The position numbers were made by a program, and so were the translations under genes. A stretch of 35,278 nucleotides of DNA from a virus: IMG/VR virus record IMGVR_UViG_3300050026_000076, positions 1 to 35,278 of that record; one strand, written 5' to 3'. Every line of letters begins with the position of its first letter. Position 1 is the stretch's first letter. Shown here piece by piece: positions 254 through 32,833 of this stretch. The notes beneath the pieces are model-generated. The model saw nothing but the letters and a program-made list of their open reading frames with translations, had not been told where the DNA came from and searched no databases.

Positions 254-2170
254 CAGGCGGCCATCAATGCCGCCAGCACGCTCGGAAAGAAGCTATGGAT
301 TCCGGCTGGCCTCTACAAAATCATCCCGGCCACCTCGCAAACCGATGAATTTGCCACCACCACCACAGCCTTCGTCATCAAGTCGGGGATGCACATCGAG
401 GCGGAGGAAGGAGCGATCTTCAAGATTGCGAACAACCAGAGCACGGACGCCAGCCCCAAGCAGCTCTACATGTTCTCCAGTGTTACCGCTCTGTCCAATC
501 TATCGTGGCGCGGACTCACGATGGACATGAACGGGGCGAACAATACCCTTTCCCCAGCTAGACCAGCTGCTTACAACAACTATAATTTCAGCCAGATTAA
601 TTTCTCAGGCGTGAATGGCCGAGCTAATGATGTCGTAATCGAGCGTTGCGACTTTATCAACACTCCGGGGACCAACTGCGTTGTTGCTGGGGTGAGCAGT
701 ACGAACGGAACCATCCTGGGCCAGCGCTGGACTATCTCCAAATGCTTGTTCCGGAACAATGGAACCGACTGCAACGACCACTCCAGCCTCTACCTCTGGA
801 TAGACACAGTTCTGATCGAGGGTAACACCTTCACAAATGACACTCAGCAAGGCACCGTTGGGCTAACCGGGGGCTACGCCGCGTGGGAGGTCCACGGAAG
901 TGGGCAGCGGTTCGTCGGCAACCTCGTCAACAACTACAATCGGGGCTTCTACCTCGCCGGCAACATCACCGAGACGGCCAAGAACATTGTGGTCACTGGT
1001 AATACCTTCACGTCGATCAAGTATTGCATCGTTCAGTTCTTCCGTGAGGCTGCCAACGCGTTTCCCATCACCAACGTGCTGATCACTAACAACACTGCCG
1101 AGCTCACAGATGACGTCACGGGGAACAACCTCAAGGCGTTCGTCTACCTCCCATGCGCATATGCCATTACCGACGTTACGGTCAGAGGCAATCGGCTCAC
1201 GAAGCCCGGCACTGTCGTGGGCTCGGCCTTCGCGGTTATCACCTCTGGAAACGCTGGCCAGCTACACACGCGGGTCGTTTTCGACGGAAACGACGTCTAC
1301 GACGCGACTTTCGGCCTGACTCTCACCACTTCCGCAACGCAGGGGCTCGGCTCCATCCGGTGGTCTAACAACACCCTAACGGACCTGACTCCAGCTGGAG
1401 TCTATGGCACGGCCATAGGCATCTCTGGGACGGGCATCAACGCGGCTGGCCCCGTAACCCACCTTTCCGTCGTGGGCAACACCACTATCGACACCCGTGG
1501 GGCGACCTTCACCGCGACCACGTCCGGGACGGCACTAACAGTGGCCTCCGTCACAGGCCTGGTGACTGCTGGGCAGCCCTATTTCGTAGGCGGCGTGAGT
1601 CAGGGCTGCTACATCGCAAGTGGGGCAGGAACCTCGTGGGTTCTGTCGGGCGTGCCGTCGGGTGGAAATGTCATCTCTCAGCCAGCCAGCAGTGGAACCG
1701 GGATCGCACAGTGCCAGTATGGCGTGTGGCTGCAGGGCGCCATCACCAACCTGCACATGACCGGCAACCAATACAGCGGCATGACGGTCTCAGAATTCAA
1801 CAATGCGGCCACCATCGCAAAGGCCACAGGGGTTTATTTCGCCACTTACACGCCCTCAGCCACGGCCCTCACTGTGGTCAATGGCACTGGAGCCGTCACC
1901 CTGACTGGGGAATACCAGCAGGTGGAAAAATTAGTCCATTATAGAATTGTCATTGCTCCAAGCGGAACGGCTACCCACGCCAGCACAGCCAGCGCAACAT
2001 TTATTTCCCTACCCGTGACCGCTGCTAGCTGGGATGTGTGTTCCGCTGTGGACAGCGGAACGATCTCTGGATACGTGTCCGGCTACAGCGACACGACCAG
2101 GGCCTTTACCCCTAGCTGGATTGCCAACAACCACCTGATAGTAGTTTCCGGGACTGTGAGGTTGCCGTGA
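1..2170 (+). CDS. Tailspike / right-handed beta-helix receptor-binding protein (3' part)
   Basis: This is the C-terminal 721 residues of a protein whose first 109 residues are at 34703-35029, giving about 830 residues in all. The early part has the pre-neck pattern QHDKNQDTVSVFDFM followed by CTAAIQAAINAA and IPAGLYKI, the usual entry into a pectate-lyase-type beta-helix. Many short beta-coil segments such as VVTGNTFTSI and VLITNNTAEL follow. Near window residues 500-560 there is a module of the common phage type TSGTALTVASVTGLV, which looks like an inserted domain. The last 100 residues form a separate C-terminal beta domain. By family it should bind, and perhaps cut, host surface polysaccharide. 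No catalytic residues can be assigned. Bases before about 240 are clearly richer in AT than the rest, so the head-binding part and the helix may have different origins. Confidence 0.85.
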   Translation, partial: GMIGYNVSQSYPTNTVGSAIQAFSSPDSGHGDALIAVLQTLNGAVARTQHDKNQDTVSVFDFMTPIQVADVMANTFTQDCTAAIQAAINAASTLGKKLWIPAGLYKIIPATSQTDEFATTTTAFVIKSGMHIEAEEGAIFKIANNQSTDASPKQLYMFSSVTALSNLSWRGLTMDMNGANNTLSPARPAAYNNYNFSQINFSGVNGRANDVVIERCDFINTPGTNCVVAGVSSTNGTILGQRWTISKCLFRNNGTDCNDHSSLYLWIDTVLIEGNTFTNDTQQGTVGLTGGYAAWEVHGSGQRFVGNLVNNYNRGFYLAGNITETAKNIVVTGNTFTSIKYCIVQFFREAANAFPITNVLITNNTAELTDDVTGNNLKAFVYLPCAYAITDVTVRGNRLTKPGTVVGSAFAVITSGNAGQLHTRVVFDGNDVYDATFGLTLTTSATQGLGSIRWSNNTLTDLTPAGVYGTAIGISGTGINAAGPVTHLSVVGNTTIDTRGATFTATTSGTALTVASVTGLVTAGQPYFVGGVSQGCYIASGAGTSWVLSGVPSGGNVISQPASSGTGIAQCQYGVWLQGAITNLHMTGNQYSGMTVSEFNNAATIAKATGVYFATYTPSATALTVVNGTGAVTLTGEYQQVEKLVHYRIVIAPSGTATHASTASATFISLPVTAASWDVCSAVDSGTISGYVSGYSDTTRAFTPSWIANNHLIVVSGTVRLP

Positions 2171-21344: not shown

Positions 21345-21635
21345 ATGGATTATCCGCGTTGGATGTATCACCCTGACGGGCGCACCTTCATTTGTCCATC
21401 GGCGGAATTCATGGCGAGTCTCACCGATAAGCACGAATGGGAAGACGCCCCTTTCACCGGCCCGCGCCGCCCTGTCCCCCCGAAATGCGCCGGGTGTGCT
21501 GCCCTTCAGAGGGAACTGGCCAAGGCGAAGGCCGATCTGGTGGACCTCACCAAGGCCCAGCTGGAGCTGGTGAACAGCGCCATCTCGGAGGAGCCCAAGA
21601 AACACCCTGGCCGTCCCCGCAAGGTTGAGCCGTGA
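21345..21635 (+). CDS. Small virion-module protein, paralog of 21005 gene
   Basis: A 96-residue protein starting MDYPRWMYHPDGRTFICPSA, the shared YP--MY-DG-TF-C-S motif, with a CAGCAALQRELAKAKADLVD coiled coil and a basic C-terminus (KKHPGRPRK) that resembles an AT-hook. AGAGG lies six bases before the ATG. Confidence 0.65.
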   Translation: MDYPRWMYHPDGRTFICPSAEFMASLTDKHEWEDAPFTGPRRPVPPKCAGCAALQRELAKAKADLVDLTKAQLELVNSAISEEPKKHPGRPRKVEP

Positions 21636-22591
21636 TCATCACCCTCCAGGCCCTCCTGAATGACGCCTTCGGAATCATCGGCGTCTTGGATGGCACGTCG
21701 CCCTTGACGGCCTTCGAGTATCAGACTGGCATCGGTGTATTCAACAATCTGGTGGATTCCTGGAATAACCTGAACTTGATGGTGTATTCGGTAAACGCTT
21801 ACACTTTCCCTTTCGTACCGGGCACTCAGGTTTATCAGGTGGGGTCGCAGAACCAGTTCCTTGCCTCCATCTCTGGGAAAACCCTGACACTTGCCGCTGC
21901 CCAGTCCCTGGCTTTAACCTCCGTGCTCCAGGACGTGGACAATCAGGTTCCCCCGTGGACGACCGTTGTTTCCGGCTCCGGCACGTCCTACACCTTGAGT
22001 CAGAACTGCGGGACCATCGCTCAGGAATTGATGGGGATCTGCACCGCCGGCGGTAGCCCCGCCGCGCCAACCTACAATTGGAACATCCCTAGGCCCACCC
22101 GGATCGAGCGCATGAGCGTGATCTACAATCCGGGCACCGGCAACCCAGTCGAACTCCCCATCGCCCCACCTTGGACCGACCTGGAGCACTGGCAGGCCAT
22201 TCCGGTGAAGTGGCAGCAGAGCGCATACCCGATTTGCTGCTACAACGATGAGTCCTTCCCCTTCATGAACCTGAATGTTTGGCCGATCCCATCTTCCCCA
22301 TGCCAGGGGGTTCTTTATGCCTGGGACCAGCTGGGCGAAGTGGCCAACCTCACCGACAAGATCGAGCTTCCTCCAGGCTACTACGATGCATTAGTCAAGT
22401 GCGTAGCCATGGAACTGGCCCTCCGCTTTCCGGGATGTCTGGTTTCCTCTGATTTGAGGGCGCAGGCTGCGGCGGCGCGGCGGGCCATCAACAACATCAA
22501 CGAAGGCATTCCAACCCTGAAGTTCGACCCCATGTTCAGCGGGCGTGGCTCCAGTGTCGAACTCAACACCCATGGACGGGTCAGTTTCTAA
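21632..22591 (+). CDS. Head-tail adaptor, P22 gp4-like position
   Basis: A 319-residue protein starting at a GTG that overlaps the previous stop. The opening LNDAFGIIGVLDGTSPLTAF, then FNNLVDSWNNLNL resembles the N-terminus of gp4-type adaptors (helices that bind the portal). A beta-rich middle follows, with a late ELPPGYYDALVKCVAMELAL and RAQAAAARRAINNIN helical end. It should seal the portal and connect to the tail. P22 gp4 is shorter (166 residues) and has lysozyme activity; I see no such active site here. Confidence 0.65.
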   Translation: MIITLQALLNDAFGIIGVLDGTSPLTAFEYQTGIGVFNNLVDSWNNLNLMVYSVNAYTFPFVPGTQVYQVGSQNQFLASISGKTLTLAAAQSLALTSVLQDVDNQVPPWTTVVSGSGTSYTLSQNCGTIAQELMGICTAGGSPAAPTYNWNIPRPTRIERMSVIYNPGTGNPVELPIAPPWTDLEHWQAIPVKWQQSAYPICCYNDESFPFMNLNVWPIPSSPCQGVLYAWDQLGEVANLTDKIELPPGYYDALVKCVAMELALRFPGCLVSSDLRAQAAAARRAINNINEGIPTLKFDPMFSGRGSSVELNTHGRVSF

Positions 22592-23175: not shown

Positions 23176-26100
23176 TTGAAGCTTAAAGGATTCATAGGAC
23201 CCGGTTATACGCTGAGAACAGTCAACTTCGACTGCCAAAGGTGCGTCAACCTCTTTCCCGAGAAGGACGAACTCCAGACTGGCAAGGAGCAGGAAGTAGC
23301 CATGCTCTGCGGAGTCCCAGGCTTCACCCTTCAGCATGTTCTCCCTCGATCTCCCATCCGTGCCGTCTATTTCACCGCCAACGGCTATATCTATGCCGTG
23401 GCGGGGAATGGGCTTTACAATCTCACCGTAACCTCGGATGGCATTTGGGCTCATACCCTCATCGGCTACCTGAACACCAGCACCGGCCCTGTCTCTATCA
23501 GGGACGGGGTTCCCAACGTCTATAATGGCATCGCCAACACTGGACTGATCAATCAGGTGGTGGTGGTGGACGGTTCAACCACCGGACTGTGTTTCGAGGA
23601 GGGCACCACTCAGGTTTATCAACTGAGCTCGGACAACGGCTACGCTGGATCGAATTTCGTCACCTTCCAGGATGGCTTCTTCCTCTTCGCCCAGTCTGGG
23701 ACCATTTCGGCCTATTACGCCAATGATCCGCTGAACATCTCAGACCTGGATGTTATCAACGTAAATCTTTCCTCGGATCAGGTGTCGCGGGTCATCTCGG
23801 ATCACGATATCGTTTGGATCTTCAGCAATCGAACGCTCAGTGTTTGGCAGAACACCGGGGGTTCGAGCAGCTCGAATGTATTCCAGCAGATCCCAGGAGC
23901 CGAGGCGGAGGGCGGCTGCAACGCACCGGCCAGCATCGCCCAGGTGGCGGGCCAGTTGATCTGGACCACCAATGACGACCGTGGCTATGGCATGGTCTGC
24001 ACGGCCTTTGGTTATCGAGGGGTGCGGATCTCCAACCATGCGGTTGAGGACTGGCTGCAATCCGTGGGCGATATCAGCGGAGCCACAGCCTGGACCTACC
24101 AGGAGGGCGGCCACTCGTTCTATTGCTTGAACGTCCCTGGTTCCAGTTCCACCTGGTGCTACGACACCGTAACCCAGATGTGGTGCGAACGGCAATTCTT
24201 CGCGGACGGCGTTTGGAGCCGCGATCTCATCGCCTGCCACTGCAATGTCTACATCGCCGGGATAGGCACCATCCATCTGGTGGGCGATTACCAGACCGGG
24301 AATCTCTACAAACTGGATGATTCCAATTACACCTTCAACGGAACGCCCATCAGCCGAATCCGAACCTCACCGCACATGAGTGGATCGCTCAAGCGGGTGT
24401 TCTATTCGTCCTTCCAATTGGATGTCGAGGCCGGTGTGGGCCTCGACGGCAACGGATTCCAGGTTCAGCAGGGCACCACGGGCGCTCCATACACCCAAAC
24501 CGCCAGCGGAACCCTATTAGCCGGGGACAGCCCGTTCACCTTCCTGGGGACCGATGGCACCCCCCAGATCCCCACTACGGTTCCGACCATCACCGCATTG
24601 GTTCCGACCATGGCCACGGGCTTCCCGAACTGGTCCGGAACCTATTCCATCAACTACACTACGGGCACCCTTACGATGACGGCTGGAACCCTGGAGACTC
24701 CGGTGATGGCTCTCGCGCCTGGAAATGGAGTGCAGTATAATTTTACGCTTCCAAATCTATATAACCTAACTCTGGCATCAGGTGGATATCAGATATGGGT
24801 TAATGACTGGCGCGGGAACAATCTTCAGTATGTATACCCGGCAGTCAATAAAAACTGGTGCACGTCCAGTTATGACTTCAACTATGCGGGTATCTGGACC
24901 TTGACGGGCGTTAATGCCGTTCCATCTTCCTGGGCATCTGTCACGTCCATAGCGGCCGCGAATGCTTACCGTCCCAGCTCCTCCTCCGCTTCCGGGGTGA
25001 CTCTTACCAACGGGGCCTATGCCTATGACGGGACGGGATTAACGGTTAAGACCAGTGGAGATTATGCCTCCACATCCCTTGACGGTGGAAGCACTGGTTC
25101 TCCGGTGTCCGGCTCCGTTACCTATGCCGGGTTCAGTGGCAGTTCTTTTTCCGGGACACTGAATCTGTATGGGTTGTTCCAAAGCTCTGTCCCTCCATCA
25201 TATAATCTTCCGGTTGTTGTCACCATATCAGCAGATGGGTATGCATCAGAACAAACCAGCACATGGTCCGGAACAACGAATACCCTTCTGAGCACATTTA
25301 TTTCAGTTAAGGATTTGACGACTCTCTCGGTTACCGTGACCTTATATTCAATGGTATTTACGAGCTATCTCAATTTATATGACATTGTTCTTTTGGACAA
25401 TTCACTCGTGCTGGGCTCTAATTCGATTCCGTCACCAGATGGAAACAGCACGGGAACGATGTTGACCGAAGAGAAATCATCAAATTATCACCTGATTTCC
25501 TTTACTTATCCCGTTACGTTGCCACAAGTAACCGGATTGTCTTGTTATGCGCTGGTTGGAGACACTAATCGTTACTTGCATATGATGCTTAAACCTATTA
25601 GAAGTGGAACATATGTTTCCGTTTGCTTCAACCTATCTAATGGGACTGTCCAATCTTCTTCCGGAGGTTCCCCGACCATTACTCCCTATGTTTTCCCGAC
25701 CCAAATATGCACCGGAATGATCGTCGGGAATAAATACAAAATCATGTCCCTTGGGAATACAACCTTCAGAAATTACGGAACGCTTGTTTCAGGAACCGAC
25801 AATACGGTTGGAGCCATCTACGCTTGCACCGCTGTTCCTCCCTCCGGCCAAGCTGGAACGGTTCAGTTACAAACCCCTGGGATTTATCGCTGCTGGATAA
25901 ATTATACCGAGAATTCCGCTTCCCTCAATGGAATGGAAGCGATCATTGCAATGACTCCGAACCCAAGCGCAGGAGCTATTGGCTATAGCGCTGATTACTA
26001 TAATGGGAATGGCAAATCCTGCATTGGGATATGGGGCGTCCATATCGATACCATAGGGGCGTCCTCGCCTCCTCCCCTTGTCCAGACATCCGGGGAAGTA

Positions 26101-26532
26101 GCCGAGGATTATATCACCTATACACCGGGGAGCGGAAACCTAGCCTTCAATATCCCACCCTTGGGTTCCGTGACCAATACTAACAGCGTCATAACAATGC
26201 CAGCGGCCACGATTACCGGCCAATTCTATTTCACCGCCGTCAACGTGCTGCCCACCGAATTCAATGCTTCCTTCAGTTACCTGGAGTCCGCGCCTAATTA
26301 CGTGACCATTGGGACCAACCCCCAGGTCGGTTTGAGCTATTCGGATGACGGCGGCCATACCTTCTGCCCTGAGCGGCTGGTCCCTCTGGGTGGCATTGGT
26401 TCACGGCTCGCGCGGGCCATCTGGCGGCGGTTGGGCATGTCCAGAGATCGGGTGTTCCGGGTTACGTGCAGCGATCCAGTCAAATTCGCGCCAATCGGTG
26501 CCGAAATCGACGCAAAGGTAGGTGATGCATGA
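23176..26532 (+). CDS. gp10-like tail protein with large inserted domains
   Basis: A 1118-residue protein; P22 gp10 has 472. The N-terminal about 420 residues (NFDCQRCVNLFPEKDEL, PGFTLQHVL, RGVRISNHAVEDWL, VGDYQTGNLYKLD) and the last 70 (PQVGLSYSDDGGHTF to GMSRDRVFRVTCSDPVKF) fit the Phage_stabilise family, which plugs the tail. Between LDVEAGVG (near 411-418) and PQVGLSYSDDGG (near 1047) about 625 residues are inserted. The insert includes a carbohydrate-binding-like domain (SPDGNSTGTMLTEE to YNGNGKSCIGIWGVHID) that itself contains a second module (MIVGNKYKIMSLGNTTF). DNA from about 24725 to 26090 is richer in AT. The TTG start follows AGGTGGAG. Confidence 0.8.
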   Translation: MKLKGFIGPGYTLRTVNFDCQRCVNLFPEKDELQTGKEQEVAMLCGVPGFTLQHVLPRSPIRAVYFTANGYIYAVAGNGLYNLTVTSDGIWAHTLIGYLNTSTGPVSIRDGVPNVYNGIANTGLINQVVVVDGSTTGLCFEEGTTQVYQLSSDNGYAGSNFVTFQDGFFLFAQSGTISAYYANDPLNISDLDVINVNLSSDQVSRVISDHDIVWIFSNRTLSVWQNTGGSSSSNVFQQIPGAEAEGGCNAPASIAQVAGQLIWTTNDDRGYGMVCTAFGYRGVRISNHAVEDWLQSVGDISGATAWTYQEGGHSFYCLNVPGSSSTWCYDTVTQMWCERQFFADGVWSRDLIACHCNVYIAGIGTIHLVGDYQTGNLYKLDDSNYTFNGTPISRIRTSPHMSGSLKRVFYSSFQLDVEAGVGLDGNGFQVQQGTTGAPYTQTASGTLLAGDSPFTFLGTDGTPQIPTTVPTITALVPTMATGFPNWSGTYSINYTTGTLTMTAGTLETPVMALAPGNGVQYNFTLPNLYNLTLASGGYQIWVNDWRGNNLQYVYPAVNKNWCTSSYDFNYAGIWTLTGVNAVPSSWASVTSIAAANAYRPSSSSASGVTLTNGAYAYDGTGLTVKTSGDYASTSLDGGSTGSPVSGSVTYAGFSGSSFSGTLNLYGLFQSSVPPSYNLPVVVTISADGYASEQTSTWSGTTNTLLSTFISVKDLTTLSVTVTLYSMVFTSYLNLYDIVLLDNSLVLGSNSIPSPDGNSTGTMLTEEKSSNYHLISFTYPVTLPQVTGLSCYALVGDTNRYLHMMLKPIRSGTYVSVCFNLSNGTVQSSSGGSPTITPYVFPTQICTGMIVGNKYKIMSLGNTTFRNYGTLVSGTDNTVGAIYACTAVPPSGQAGTVQLQTPGIYRCWINYTENSASLNGMEAIIAMTPNPSAGAIGYSADYYNGNGKSCIGIWGVHIDTIGASSPPPLVQTSGEVAEDYITYTPGSGNLAFNIPPLGSVTNTNSVITMPAATITGQFYFTAVNVLPTEFNASFSYLESAPNYVTIGTNPQVGLSYSDDGGHTFCPERLVPLGGIGSRLARAIWRRLGMSRDRVFRVTCSDPVKFAPIGAEIDAKVGDA

Positions 26533-28277: not shown

Positions 28278-30203
28278 ATGCCCTATGGAATGGGTGGATA
28301 TGGTGGATATGGTGGTTATGGCGGGGGGCTCGGTTCCATCCCTATGCCGACCGGCGCAGTAACCGGCCTGATCCCCAATGAAGTGAATGTTGACCCCAGG
28401 GTGCGGGGCCAGGTGATTGCTCAGAATCAGGCCAACGCTGCCAACCAGCAAGCCGCGACCGATGCCGCCCTCATCACGGCGGCCGCGCAGAAGCATACCT
28501 CATGGCAACCCCAACAGACCAACGTGGTGCAATCCCAGCCTTCAGCTCCCATTGGAAATCAGGGGCCGGTGAACCCCCAGCAGCCCACTCCGCCCCCCGC
28601 GCAACCTCCCTCCTCGCTGGCATCTATCATGCCATCCCAGCAATCGCCTTACCCGGCGCAGGGGCCGGTTAAGCCTACTGCCCCGCTGCCTGCCAATCCA
28701 CTGAAGGCTTACGCCCCGCTCACCCCCGCCACGGGACCCGCGATTTTGAATGACCCCGCGCTACAGGCCGTCGCCGGCGCGCACAACAACGCCGATACTT
28801 CCATGGCGGTTGGAAGTAGCCCGACCTTCAACCCGGTGCAGTCCTATACAGCCAAGGGTCCGAACGGCCAGATGGGACAATTCAGCCTGGACCGGGCCGG
28901 GATTATCTCCGATCTCATGGGCCAGGGGCGCGGCGATCTTGCCAACGGTTTGGTCAAACAGTGGACGGATGCCGATCTCCAGAGCGAGCAAACCAAGCAG
29001 GTGGCCCTTATCAAACAACATGCGTTGCTGGCCGGGAATGTCGCCGCCTTCGAATCCCTCCCGGAATCCATGAAGCCAGCGGCCTATTCCGCACTCATGG
29101 CTCAGGTGAAGTCCGAGGGCGTCAATACGGCGGGAATCCTCCCGGATGCCTATGACCCCAAAGACGCGGCAGGAATCGCCCAGATTAAGAATTTTGAGGC
29201 CCAGGCGTCCACCGTGGCAGAGAAAGAAAAGGCCAAAATGGACCAAGTTGTTGCGACCATGGACCAGCAGCGCACGGCTGAAACCGCTCGGCACGATAAG
29301 GCAGATGAATGGCTGAAAGGCCAAGAAAACAAGATTGCAGCATCCAAGGCAGCTCAGGCCGTTAATGGTGTCCTTGGAAGTGCTGGATTGGTTGGTCCCG
29401 CCTTCCTGGCCCAACTGGACCCGGCCACGATCAACACTCTACAGGGCATCGCAACCGGGAAACTCGTTTTGCCGCCTCGTGGGCAGCAAACTTCCGCACT
29501 TCTCCAGGCGGCTCATCAGGCGTGGCCGGATGTGGATATTCCCGGTGCCCAGAAACTCACCAAAGATTTAGGCGCATCCAACGCAGGAACATCTGGCGGC
29601 ATTGCCGAGGGCTCCAATAAAACTCTGGAGCACATCGGCGTCATGATGGCCCAGGATCAGGCGGGTGGCCAGCGCGGCTCGACCATCACCCCCAACTTCC
29701 TTGCAGCGGGCGCGAACGCGGTTATCAACGCGCTAGAACCTGATGAGAACAATGCCAAGGCTGCCTGGAATCAGGCCCACGCCGCAACCCTTACCGAGAT
29801 GTCCAGATCCTTCAAGGGTGGCCCTCCGGGAGAATCTGAAGTTGTGCGGGACATGAAAACACTATCGTTCAATGATCCCCCGGCCAAAAAGCAAGCTGTG
29901 TATCGGGCATTCGCTGATCTTCTTCAGGGTCAGACGGGTGCCGTGGAATCTCAGCGTAAGTCGGTCTATGGATCTCTCGATCCGGGAACATCCCTGCTGA
30001 CTTCCCAGGCCCAGAAGGTGTATGCCGCGCTTCATGGTGGCTCGACCGGGAACCTTCTTCCCGCGTTCGACTCCCAGCAGTCGGTGAGTAGTGCCCCCCC
30101 TGCCGCTTCAGGCACCAATCACCCCGCAGCGGCCCAGATGAAAGATGGAACCGTTTCCCAGAGTGGCAAGTTCGTCTGGCATGGCGGATGGGTGCCGAGG
30201 TAA
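28278..30203 (+). CDS. gp20-like ejection protein
   Basis: A 641-residue protein in the P22 gp20 position. The first about 20 residues are Gly/Tyr-rich (MGGYGGYGGYGGG), followed by a Pro/Gln-rich disordered region and a helical core (GQFSLDRAGIISDLMGQGRG, AEKEKAKMDQVVATMDQQRT). Sequence conservation in this family is low, so the call depends on position, size and composition. It has no obvious enzyme motif. GGAGT lies before the ATG. Confidence 0.6.
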   Translation: MPYGMGGYGGYGGYGGGLGSIPMPTGAVTGLIPNEVNVDPRVRGQVIAQNQANAANQQAATDAALITAAAQKHTSWQPQQTNVVQSQPSAPIGNQGPVNPQQPTPPPAQPPSSLASIMPSQQSPYPAQGPVKPTAPLPANPLKAYAPLTPATGPAILNDPALQAVAGAHNNADTSMAVGSSPTFNPVQSYTAKGPNGQMGQFSLDRAGIISDLMGQGRGDLANGLVKQWTDADLQSEQTKQVALIKQHALLAGNVAAFESLPESMKPAAYSALMAQVKSEGVNTAGILPDAYDPKDAAGIAQIKNFEAQASTVAEKEKAKMDQVVATMDQQRTAETARHDKADEWLKGQENKIAASKAAQAVNGVLGSAGLVGPAFLAQLDPATINTLQGIATGKLVLPPRGQQTSALLQAAHQAWPDVDIPGAQKLTKDLGASNAGTSGGIAEGSNKTLEHIGVMMAQDQAGGQRGSTITPNFLAAGANAVINALEPDENNAKAAWNQAHAATLTEMSRSFKGGPPGESEVVRDMKTLSFNDPPAKKQAVYRAFADLLQGQTGAVESQRKSVYGSLDPGTSLLTSQAQKVYAALHGGSTGNLLPAFDSQQSVSSAPPAASGTNHPAAAQMKDGTVSQSGKFVWHGGWVPR

Positions 30204-30205
30204 CT

Positions 30206-32833
30206 ATGGCAAACTATGCTGTCCCCGCTCCCGACGACGCGCCTTCCAGTGGATACGCTGTTCCGGCCCCAGATGATGCTCAACCTCAGGCCAGCTGGCA
30301 AGCCCAGGTAAAGCCTGCCCAGACCTACAACGGCAAGCAGTCCGTCCTCCGCTCGGATGGTGCCGTTTGGTATGGCCCGGAACAAGGCAATACCGGGGCT
30401 CCTGGGTGGTTCGACGCGCAGGGCAACCGCGCCAGCGATGCGCCGGGGCAATCGAAGCCTACCCTGAGCACTCTGGGCCGCTTGGGCTCCGAAGCAGCCA
30501 TTGGCGCAACCTCCTGGGCTCCTGCTTTGGCCGGCCATATCTTGAGCGGCTTTGGATTATTCCCGAACAAGGTGGCCCAGAGCCAGACGGACCTTGCCAA
30601 TCAGGCTAATCAGTATGGGCAGGAGCTTGAAAACGGAACGCCCAGTGCTCTTGGGCTTCCGTCCAACGCCCCTGCCAAGAGCCTGCATGGATTTGGGACC
30701 GCTGCGAATTTGGCGGGGCAACTCGTGCCGATGGCTCTTGCGGGAGAAGTTACCGGTGTCCCGGCTCTGACCCGCGCGGCCATGGGGTATCTGCCCGAGG
30801 CCACAACCGCGCTCGGAAGGCTTGGGACTTCGCTTGCGGGCGGGGCAATTGGTGGTGGCCTGTTCGGTGGGATCACCGCGCCAGCTATGCAGCCCACCCC
30901 TGAAGGCCAGTCTTATGGTGGTGCGGCCGCGCAGAACATCCTTCCGTCTGCCGCCATGGGTGCCTTTGTCCCAGGTGGGTTGTCTGCCTTGAGTGAAGGC
31001 CCTGAAATCATCGGGCAAGGGATGCGCCGCGTCCTAGGGACTCCTGCGGAGCGGCAAGCCGCCTTGGACTTGGCTCTATCCATCCGCTCGGCTACTGGAG
31101 CCGAGCCGAGTCTTGGGGAATCCCTGCAAAATCCCACCCTCAAACATGTTGAAAATGCCTCTGAATATGTTCCCATGGGCGGTCGGGGTACTCAACTCAA
31201 GGCCAATAATGCGGCCCTACAGGGTGCACTCCAAGCCGAGGTGGACGCCAATACACCGGCGCTTGGCCCCACGGGGGCAGGCGACATGATCGCCAATTCG
31301 GCCAAGGCTGGGCTCTCCGCGAAACGAGCACCGGCCATTCAACTATATAATGAAGTTCGGGCATCCGCTGGAAGCGCAAAGCCTACCGTCGATAATACCC
31401 TTGATGCCTATGATGACGCCATCGCTCAGGAATCGGGGATTTCTGGCGCCGATTCTCCACAGACCAAACTACTTCAAGCGGAACGCGATAAGCTGGCATC
31501 TGGAGAAACGGCCCCTACCTACAACTCCCTAGAAAAGATGCAGGACCGGCAACAGAGCCAAGCGGCGAACAATTTCAATGCTCCCAGTCAGGAGGCCCAG
31601 GACGTGGCCCACTACCGATCCGAGATTGGGAAGGCGATGGGAGCAGATTTACATGCCACCGCCAACGCTGTCGATCCCGCACTTGGGGATAAATACGCTC
31701 AGGCCAACAATATTTATGCTGAATCCTACAATTACGACCCCAACGCATCGACTGATTGGCAGGAGTCCAAGCAGCGTAGCATGAACCGTATTCTGCATGG
31801 CCAAGAAGGTGCTACGACCACGTTGCCGGACCAGCTATTCCGGGGAGACAATCCCGATATGGCTGCCCACGCCGCCGAAACCTTGACTCCGGAGGGCCAA
31901 GCCGCCGTCAAAGCGGCTATCTGGGATCGCATCAACAAGGCAGCTAATACCACCAGTCAAGGTGGCACTTCCAAGTCTCAGGTGTTCAGCCCGGCCAAGG
32001 CATCCGGGGCCATCGATGACCATGCCAACTTCATCAAGCAATTCTTCAGCCCCGATGAACAGAACGACATCTTTGGGTTGCGTGATGCCTTCCGCACCAT
32101 GCAGCGCTCAGGGCAATATATGGAGAGCCTCCAAACCGGGAAGTTCGTGCCAGCCATTGCGGCCGCTACCGGCCTCCCAAGTGCCGCCGGACTCGCCCTT
32201 GCTGGGCATCCTGCAACCCTCGGGATGGAACTGGGAACCATGGGGGCAGCCCGAGGCTACAACGCCCTGTCGGGCACTCCAGGGGGCAAGAATTGGCTCC
32301 TGAATCCAGGTGGAGCGCCAACCTCGGTGGGGACGATTGCCTCGCCTCAGATGTCAGGATTGACCACCCTGGCTCGTCCGCGTTCCCAGCAGGAATATGA
32401 CGCGCTGCCCCCGGAAACCCCCTACCAGGGCATGAGTGGGACACCGGGGATGAAGCTGTCCACCATCCCACAGTATGACCCTCAGTCTGGTTTTGAGAAG
32501 TTCACCACACAAGACGTTGACCCCAGTGCCATAAGCAAAGGACTCATTGAGAAGGGGAATATCCCTTTGGTTGGGCGCCCCCTGGTTGCAATGGGAAGGG
32601 GAAGCGTTGGCTCGGAATACAGTTACACCATTGATGATAATGGGGCAAAGGTTCTGATCCCATCCATCTTTGATGGAGCACCTCATACAGCGCAACAAGC
32701 AATCGCCCATTATCGGACGACCGGGCAGCATCTTGGGAAATGGAATAATGAGGCTGATGCTGCTGCTGCTGCTGAAATTATTCACAACCGGGAGAACCGC
32801 GTCCTTTATCAACAACCAGGAGTAAAGCCATGA
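30206..32833 (+). CDS. gp16-like large internal virion protein
   Basis: An 875-residue protein in the P22 gp16 position. I chose the ATG at 30206 (behind GAGG) over one 18 bases upstream inside the previous gene. The N-terminus has two AVPAPDD repeats; hydrophobic, Gly/Ala-rich segments around residues 170-250 could insert in membranes; a long helical middle follows. The end (IEKGNIPLVGRPLVAMGRGS, LIPSIFDGAPHTAQQAIAHY, TTGQHLGKWNNEADA) matches a C-terminal domain shared by many podovirus internal proteins. No lytic transglycosylase motif is obvious. Confidence 0.65.
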   Translation: MANYAVPAPDDAPSSGYAVPAPDDAQPQASWQAQVKPAQTYNGKQSVLRSDGAVWYGPEQGNTGAPGWFDAQGNRASDAPGQSKPTLSTLGRLGSEAAIGATSWAPALAGHILSGFGLFPNKVAQSQTDLANQANQYGQELENGTPSALGLPSNAPAKSLHGFGTAANLAGQLVPMALAGEVTGVPALTRAAMGYLPEATTALGRLGTSLAGGAIGGGLFGGITAPAMQPTPEGQSYGGAAAQNILPSAAMGAFVPGGLSALSEGPEIIGQGMRRVLGTPAERQAALDLALSIRSATGAEPSLGESLQNPTLKHVENASEYVPMGGRGTQLKANNAALQGALQAEVDANTPALGPTGAGDMIANSAKAGLSAKRAPAIQLYNEVRASAGSAKPTVDNTLDAYDDAIAQESGISGADSPQTKLLQAERDKLASGETAPTYNSLEKMQDRQQSQAANNFNAPSQEAQDVAHYRSEIGKAMGADLHATANAVDPALGDKYAQANNIYAESYNYDPNASTDWQESKQRSMNRILHGQEGATTTLPDQLFRGDNPDMAAHAAETLTPEGQAAVKAAIWDRINKAANTTSQGGTSKSQVFSPAKASGAIDDHANFIKQFFSPDEQNDIFGLRDAFRTMQRSGQYMESLQTGKFVPAIAAATGLPSAAGLALAGHPATLGMELGTMGAARGYNALSGTPGGKNWLLNPGGAPTSVGTIASPQMSGLTTLARPRSQQEYDALPPETPYQGMSGTPGMKLSTIPQYDPQSGFEKFTTQDVDPSAISKGLIEKGNIPLVGRPLVAMGRGSVGSEYSYTIDDNGAKVLIPSIFDGAPHTAQQAIAHYRTTGQHLGKWNNEADAAAAAEIIHNRENRVLYQQPGVKP

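Follow-up and report, generated by a model that had tools for sequence, protein, structure and literature searches.

Promiscuous immunoglobulin (Ig)-like domains are small and occur in unrelated virion proteins, where, as Fraser and colleagues reportedly proposed, they would aid weak adhesion. Binding modules are likewise carried by structural virion proteins of the lactococcal 936 siphophages, in which the parts of PMC6669499 available to us place carbohydrate-binding modules on the neck passage structure, the major tail protein and the evolved Dit, and report that two of them bind host cells. The available sections of PMC10684548 describe domain mosaicism in phage proteins more generally, with fragments common to unrelated proteins, neck proteins included. 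Here we analyze a window of 35,278 bases, which comes from a single virus record (IMG/VR IMGVR_UViG_3300050026_000076), and in it a gene for a gp10-type tail plug whose product carries a long insert with a domain of the head-spike-fibre type. Our preferred reading, to which we give a probability of about two in three, is that this plug bears a probable sugar-binding domain and serves as a landing place for two families of small modules, called here type A and type B, that are exchanged by recombination.

The 936 siphophages are another type of phage, whereas the present case concerns the plug of a podophage and a domain that is itself interrupted by further modules. Types A and B differ from the phage Ig-like domains in being other, unnamed sequence families that lie inside loops, and the available sections of the mosaicism study (PMC10684548) name neither these modules nor gp10. 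No prior name for them was found in the literature searched, and "unnamed" refers to that literature and to the Pfam, PHROGs and NCBIfam scans. Binding modules on structural proteins and promiscuous domains are known; what is new here is the two unnamed module families and the tail plug as their host.

The tail plug gene and its layered insert

The open reading frame (ORF) at 23176-26532 on the plus strand is open throughout, and a profile search assigns its product to PHROG 578, "head closure Hc3" (the P22 gp10 family), at an expect value (E) of 4.8e-81; two stretches of the protein match, of which the best spans residues 11-424. The propeller and the C-terminal part both fit a P22 gp10-type plug, by profile match and, for the C part, by alignment with short gp10s, and the start residue is common to relatives L002-L004. 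Upstream lie, in order, the genes for P22_portal, scaffold and coat and a PHROG 12985 gene, followed by gp10. Because of the PHROG 578 match and the P22-type portal, scaffold and coat genes upstream, we identify the product, from its sequence, as the tail plug of a P22-type short-tailed phage, in agreement with the initial annotation; it resembles P22 gp10 and PHROG 578 (tubeB of podoviruses) in its N part, its C part and its gene order.

Four short gp10s (L010, L011, L012 and L102) have no insert, whereas the window gp10 has 622 residues at the GVGL/PQV loop. The last residue of GVGL is number 423 and the first of PQV number 1049, a separation of about 625 residues, as first proposed, and the comparison with short homologs that had been suggested at that time shows the whole insert to be absent from all four. 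When the phage collection was searched by tblastn, 38 records matched the window gp10; the better ones align only residues 5-423 and about 1040-1117, and none of the 38 covers 80% of the query. Alignment with the short gp10s places a long insert at exactly this loop in the window and in seven other distinct gp10s, a count obtained after merging same-contig or identical copies (L005, L006, L089, L093-L095, L097, L098, L101, L104-L110, L231 and L232). Short extensions at the GVGL loop are also found in L010, L194, L250 and L277.

The insertions had been described as nested, and empty-site relatives exist for each layer: the four short gp10s for the first, L096 and L100 for the second, and at least four long gp10s for the third. 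The second layer, some 165 residues long (587-752), is an inner domain that is profile-positive in L002, L003 and L004, the profile having been built from these and the window, and that is matched independently in L099 (22.7 bits). In L096 and L100 this profile finds no match and the flanks run straight on; L103 is also negative, yet its alignment shows a stretch of similar length. The third layer, a type A module at residues 844-896, is absent at the same loop from L002, L003, L004 and L103, and in L099 that loop region holds two type B modules instead.

A long form in all near relatives had been named as an argument against an insertion. All eight distinct near-relative gp10s, the window's included, are indeed long, but the reading as an insertion stands, because short gp10s lie outside the clade; what the shared long form indicates is that the insert is, on sequence comparison, old in this gp10 clade. 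The observation that the insert DNA is AT-richer was confirmed, with a guanine plus cytosine (GC) content of 0.504 against 0.563 in the N part and 0.621 in the C part, and a minimum of 0.436 in the first half of the spike-fibre-type domain. Corresponding values for insert and N part in three relatives are 0.507/0.572, 0.558/0.590 and 0.417/0.446. Since the insert is AT-richer in relatives too, this is a lasting property, and composition gives no sign of recent import. A full-length AlphaFold2 model of the window gp10, made from a 4-row alignment, had a mean predicted local distance difference test score (pLDDT) of 30.4 and was useless.

The head-spike-fibre-type domain

The main inserted domain is assigned by its sequence to the head-spike-fibre family of gene transfer agents. 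The domain of L004 matches residues 114-264 of the RcGTA head spike fibre Rcc01080 (PDB 6tb9_F3) with E 9.1e-7, and that of L003 scores above the cut-off of the NCBIfam model GTA_spike_fiber (NF048003), with 52.3 bits against 36; these matches support the initial annotation in so far as it placed a domain of a sugar-binding type in the insert. In the window gp10 a profile of the domain (cbm4) finds it as two halves, of 55.9 and 31.6 bits, on either side of the type A module, as expected for a domain split by a separate module. The profile positions matched are 1-85 and 47-147, and the second stretch partly overlaps the module. The profile, grown on 231 records, detects the domain in 162 ORFs, and all those with a gp10 N part belong to this single gp10 clade; a pattern scan gave at least 120 stretches, 80 of them among the matches listed. 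A further insertion within this domain, after SIYAT and in another loop than the window's, was observed in L100:3998-7171 and L096:3649-6858.

In RcGTA the leucine-rich N terminus of Rcc01080 anchors the fibre on capsid-bound base pentamers, and the head fibres let particles attach to the capsule, as described in the portions of PMC7296036 at hand. The homologous domain of the window is instead embedded in the plug and, unlike that of Rcc01080, is interrupted by the inner domain and a mini-module. We considered and rejected the window gp10 as a free-standing head spike fibre: the domain lies inside gp10 and there is no N-terminal head anchoring. Since only the domain is shared, the protein is not classed as a head spike fibre. 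In the available text of PMC10218006, binding of the tagged RcGTA fibre was 100% for wild-type cells and only about 4% for a capsule-less mutant. As to position, the conserved propeller part of the P22 family lines the channel without outside exposure, according to section 3.6 of PMC10386132, the part available to us, and tolerated inserts would therefore be expected on the outside.

Small modules in gp10 and other virion proteins

Type A is a family of about 50 residues, and the window copy reads MIVGNKYKIMSLGNTTF...NTVGAIYACTAV. Its score against the family profile is 39.9 bits, compared with at most 15.4 for 5,000 shuffles, but this profile grew by iteration and the window copy is probably among its members; a profile made from five other copies gives only 12.4 bits, with E 6e-6 for that single protein. 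At least 538 true relatives were found in IMG/VR among at least 600 matched stretches, and the same query gave 11 true relatives among 37 matched stretches in 84,980 species genomes. The small module thus proved to be a member of a widespread family, and two more modules were found in other tail genes of the phage; both points go beyond the initial annotation.

The fetched loci contain 129 type A copies in 94 ORFs, 65 of them distinct; 52 of these 65 were scanned against Pfam and PHROGs, and 20 ORFs were scanned singly. For the 52 hosts, with 25 of 62 PHROGs listed, the families include tail fibre, central fibre J, tail sheath, baseplate wedge, head-tail adaptor, Hc2 and Hc3. Of the 20 scanned singly, 14 match PHROGs (13 of tail, head or connector families, one of unknown families only) and six have no PHROGs match; none is metabolic. 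The Pfam, PHROGs and NCBIfam scans returned no family confined to a module, and among the Pfam matches of the 52 host proteins there is no Ig model, with fn3 in two, anywhere in the protein. A search of phages by tblastn with the window's own type A module gave no match. The L003 copy matched three phage records, the alignment being confined to its first 40 residues (probably through the BLAST low-complexity filter), and no plasmid record; a PDB sequence search with the type A profile gave chance-level matches only.

With the predicted type A model, Foldseek found nothing at E up to 0.001 in either the PDB or BFVD. Thirteen viral models in BFVD have a probability of 0.77-1.00 and a template modelling (TM) score, on the query, of 0.55-0.80, a likeness by shape alone. 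The best PDB neighbours are FeoA-like SH3-type barrels, led by 3e19_D (Z 4.7, 54 aligned residues, root-mean-square deviation 3.0), a weak match; six of the eight neighbours listed are FeoA or FeoA-like and one is a metal-dependent repressor, all of them weak.

The two further modules of the window are of type B. One lies in ORF 5-2170, at the left edge of the record, which encodes a tailspike-like beta-helix (PHROG 28781 tail spike, E 3.8e-9); it occupies residues 501-552, and the site is empty in all six aligned relatives, which pass from turn to turn without an insert. The other lies at about residues 75-125 of the product of the adaptor-like gene 21632-22591, just upstream of gp10, where positions 3-210 of the PHROG 12985 profile are stretched across residues 4-288. 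Among 13 other sequences aligned, this site is filled in L002, L003, L004, L010, L245 and L249 and empty in L011, L099, L102, L103, L138 and L194; the sequence of L100 is incomplete.

Modules occupy differing sites among the gp10s. In the window, type A lies before GIYRC in the spike-fibre-type domain; L003 and L004 have it in the propeller, as do the distant L038 and L084. L099 has two type B copies in the spike-fibre-type domain, L103 has type B in its inner domain, and in L100 type B comes late in the spike-fibre-type domain, after YRCSINY. L002 has no module in gp10, though it is 87% identical to the window over the propeller and C part. In many gp10s of another lineage type B, usually paired, lies at about residues 135-265 of the propeller (for example in L252, L260, L277 and L287); these gp10s entered the set because the preceding gene had a type B match, so that their number is uninformative on frequency, and near-copies are numerous among them. 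In a tree of 12 rows the window and L002 are joined (96/96) and L003 comes next (96/96), with open forks remaining. Six module-position labels require six changes on this tree, where the least possible is five, and the late type B label of L096 comes from the alignment, the type B profile having given no match there. These label changes point to repeated gain or loss of modules among gp10s, as judged from few events on a tree with open forks.

Several further observations concern the modules. Single ORFs contain seven (L042:551-4279) and eight (L317:2-8149) strongly diverged type A copies. At 25633-25905 of the window the module sequence YxIxxxGNTTF resembles IxxIGNGxY of the host domain at the very insertion point, where automatic alignments slipped; the resemblance could be chance or a trace of recombination at local similarity. 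In a combined alignment of spike-fibre and module rows, none of 52 module rows was well placed. Beside the type B pair of gp10, L252:3313-5190 and L272:3241-5187 have a repeated stretch of the kind GGTGYxVxDxxTVLGGxYGTTP, possibly a third module family.

Features of the gp10-type gene and the two other module-bearing genes in the window
Feature	Coordinates	Strand	Evidence
gp10-type tail plug / head-closure (Hc3) gene, 1118 aa, TTG start	23176..26532	+	PHROG 578 match
gp10 N part (residues 1-423), propeller region	23176..24444	+	PHROG 578 stretch, alignment with four short gp10s
Long insert, residues 424-1045, at GVGL/PQV loop	24445..26310	+	comparison with relatives
Lead region of insert (GNGxxxxFxLPN, DWRG, SYDFxxxGIW)	24445..24933	+	alignment only
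Inner domain, residues 587-752	24934..25431	+	profile of 4 relatives (window included)
Head-spike-fibre-type domain, first half (residues 753-843)	25432..25704	+	profile cbm4, 55.9 bits
Type A mini-module (residues 844-896)	25705..25863	+	family profile and empty loop in relatives
Head-spike-fibre-type domain, second half (about residues 900-976)	25873..26103	+	profile cbm4, 31.6 bits
gp10 C part (residues 1046-1118)	26311..26529	+	tblastn alignment, weak PDB match 7eeq_1
Type B mini-module in tailspike-like ORF 5-2170	1505..1660	+	modB3 E 2.4e-7, relatives' site empty
Type B mini-module in adaptor-like gene 21632-22591	21854..22006	+	modB3 E 3.2e-7, empty and filled relatives

Downstream of gp10, the large ORFs 28278-30203 and 30188-32833 are likely to encode ejection or tail proteins; neither had a match in the Pfam or PHROGs scans.

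Interpretation, alternatives and significance

We propose that the gp10-type plug would retain its structural job of closing the head-tail channel, while an external loop by its C-terminal strand would have taken up the head-spike-fibre-type domain. With this domain the virion would most likely be able to hold on to host surface polysaccharide, weakly and reversibly, ahead of tailspike engagement, which may give it the second surface-binding function put forward initially. The spike-fibre-type domain, the propeller of relatives and two other tail proteins would be the landing places for in-frame modules of about 50 residues, which lie in loops, are probably independent folding units and may act as interchangeable surface pieces. 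Types A and B are most likely promiscuous virion-surface modules exchanged by recombination; they would pass between genes and phages by the ordinary recombination of phages, in frame where a loop tolerates them.

Several points weigh against this proposal. The curated NCBIfam GTA_spike_fiber model misses the window gp10 copy. According to PMC10218006, strain 37b4 lacks the capsule as well and yet retained about 45% binding of the tagged RcGTA fibre, so that the specificity of that fibre is itself not simple, and sugar binding by the window insert is a fair inference by analogy. Surface exposure of the loop is likewise deduced from the published P22 topology, as given in the available part of PMC10386132. 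The window type A copy is divergent, with 21-40% identity, and its structure model is moderately confident (pLDDT 69, predicted TM score 0.54). Finally, all eight long gp10s retain the large insert, and there is no sign of present-day exchange in that layer.

This last point also suits a purely structural role, in which the insert would stiffen or seal the joint between plug, adaptor and tailspike and the small modules would be near-neutral loop passengers. All eight members of the clade have the long form, the modules lie at different loops with no common position, and the shorter extensions at the GVGL loop in other gp10s would fit such a role. We nevertheless consider it unlikely, since the studied member of the RcGTA head-spike-fibre type, to which the inserted domain belongs, has a role in cell attachment, and since all singly scanned type A hosts with a named PHROG are virion proteins, which neutral insertion alone does not predict. 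An apparent fusion of gp10 to another gene, by an assembly or frameshift artefact, would account for the length difference, and the window is indeed a single virus record for which tblastn found no full-length isolate relative. The reading frame is, however, open throughout, and seven other distinct relatives on other contigs have the same part order at the same site; these independent relatives refute the artefact, which we regard as practically negligible.

The small modules could also be selfish DNA spreading by its own mobility. Rickettsia palindromic elements are in-frame inserts in coding genes, as are types A and B, and their hosts reportedly belong to all functional classes. In-frame insertion, clean empty sites and several copies per gene (as in L042 and L317), together with the presence of modules in three genes of the window, would be expected of such elements. 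Against this, 13 of the 14 singly scanned type A hosts with a PHROG match belong to virion families and one is unknown, so that every host with a named family is a virion protein. Furthermore, the copies in L042 differ greatly, which speaks against a recent burst, and no direct repeats of at least 6 bases occur near the ends of the window type A copy, this being the sole sign of mobility sought. We therefore hold an origin as selfish elements to be improbable, and prefer exchange of surface modules by recombination on a plug with a probable sugar-binding domain. Rather more tentatively, and with less confidence than for this plug, types A and B, and perhaps the third family of L252 and L272, may form a phage-wide kit of autonomously folding loop modules for adhesion or shielding that libraries do not recognise. 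If so, its modules would have entered loops of conserved virion proteins repeatedly, the kit would span plug, adaptor, sheath, baseplate and tailspike, and the window phage would be a compact example, with one module in each of three tail components.

Modules of this kind distort homology searches, as seen in the spike-fibre domain of the window, which is interrupted by a module and was missed by the curated model. Their function is open to direct test, since these families are abundant and the modules are small and easy to express. The plug, the adaptor and the baseplate usually count as the virion's constant part, with variation ascribed to the receptor-binding proteins. Here the constant parts are dotted with small, apparently swappable modules, and the plug bears a spike-fibre-type domain. 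Should the modules prove to bind or shield surfaces, the tailspikes alone would not suffice for reading off host range and adsorption.

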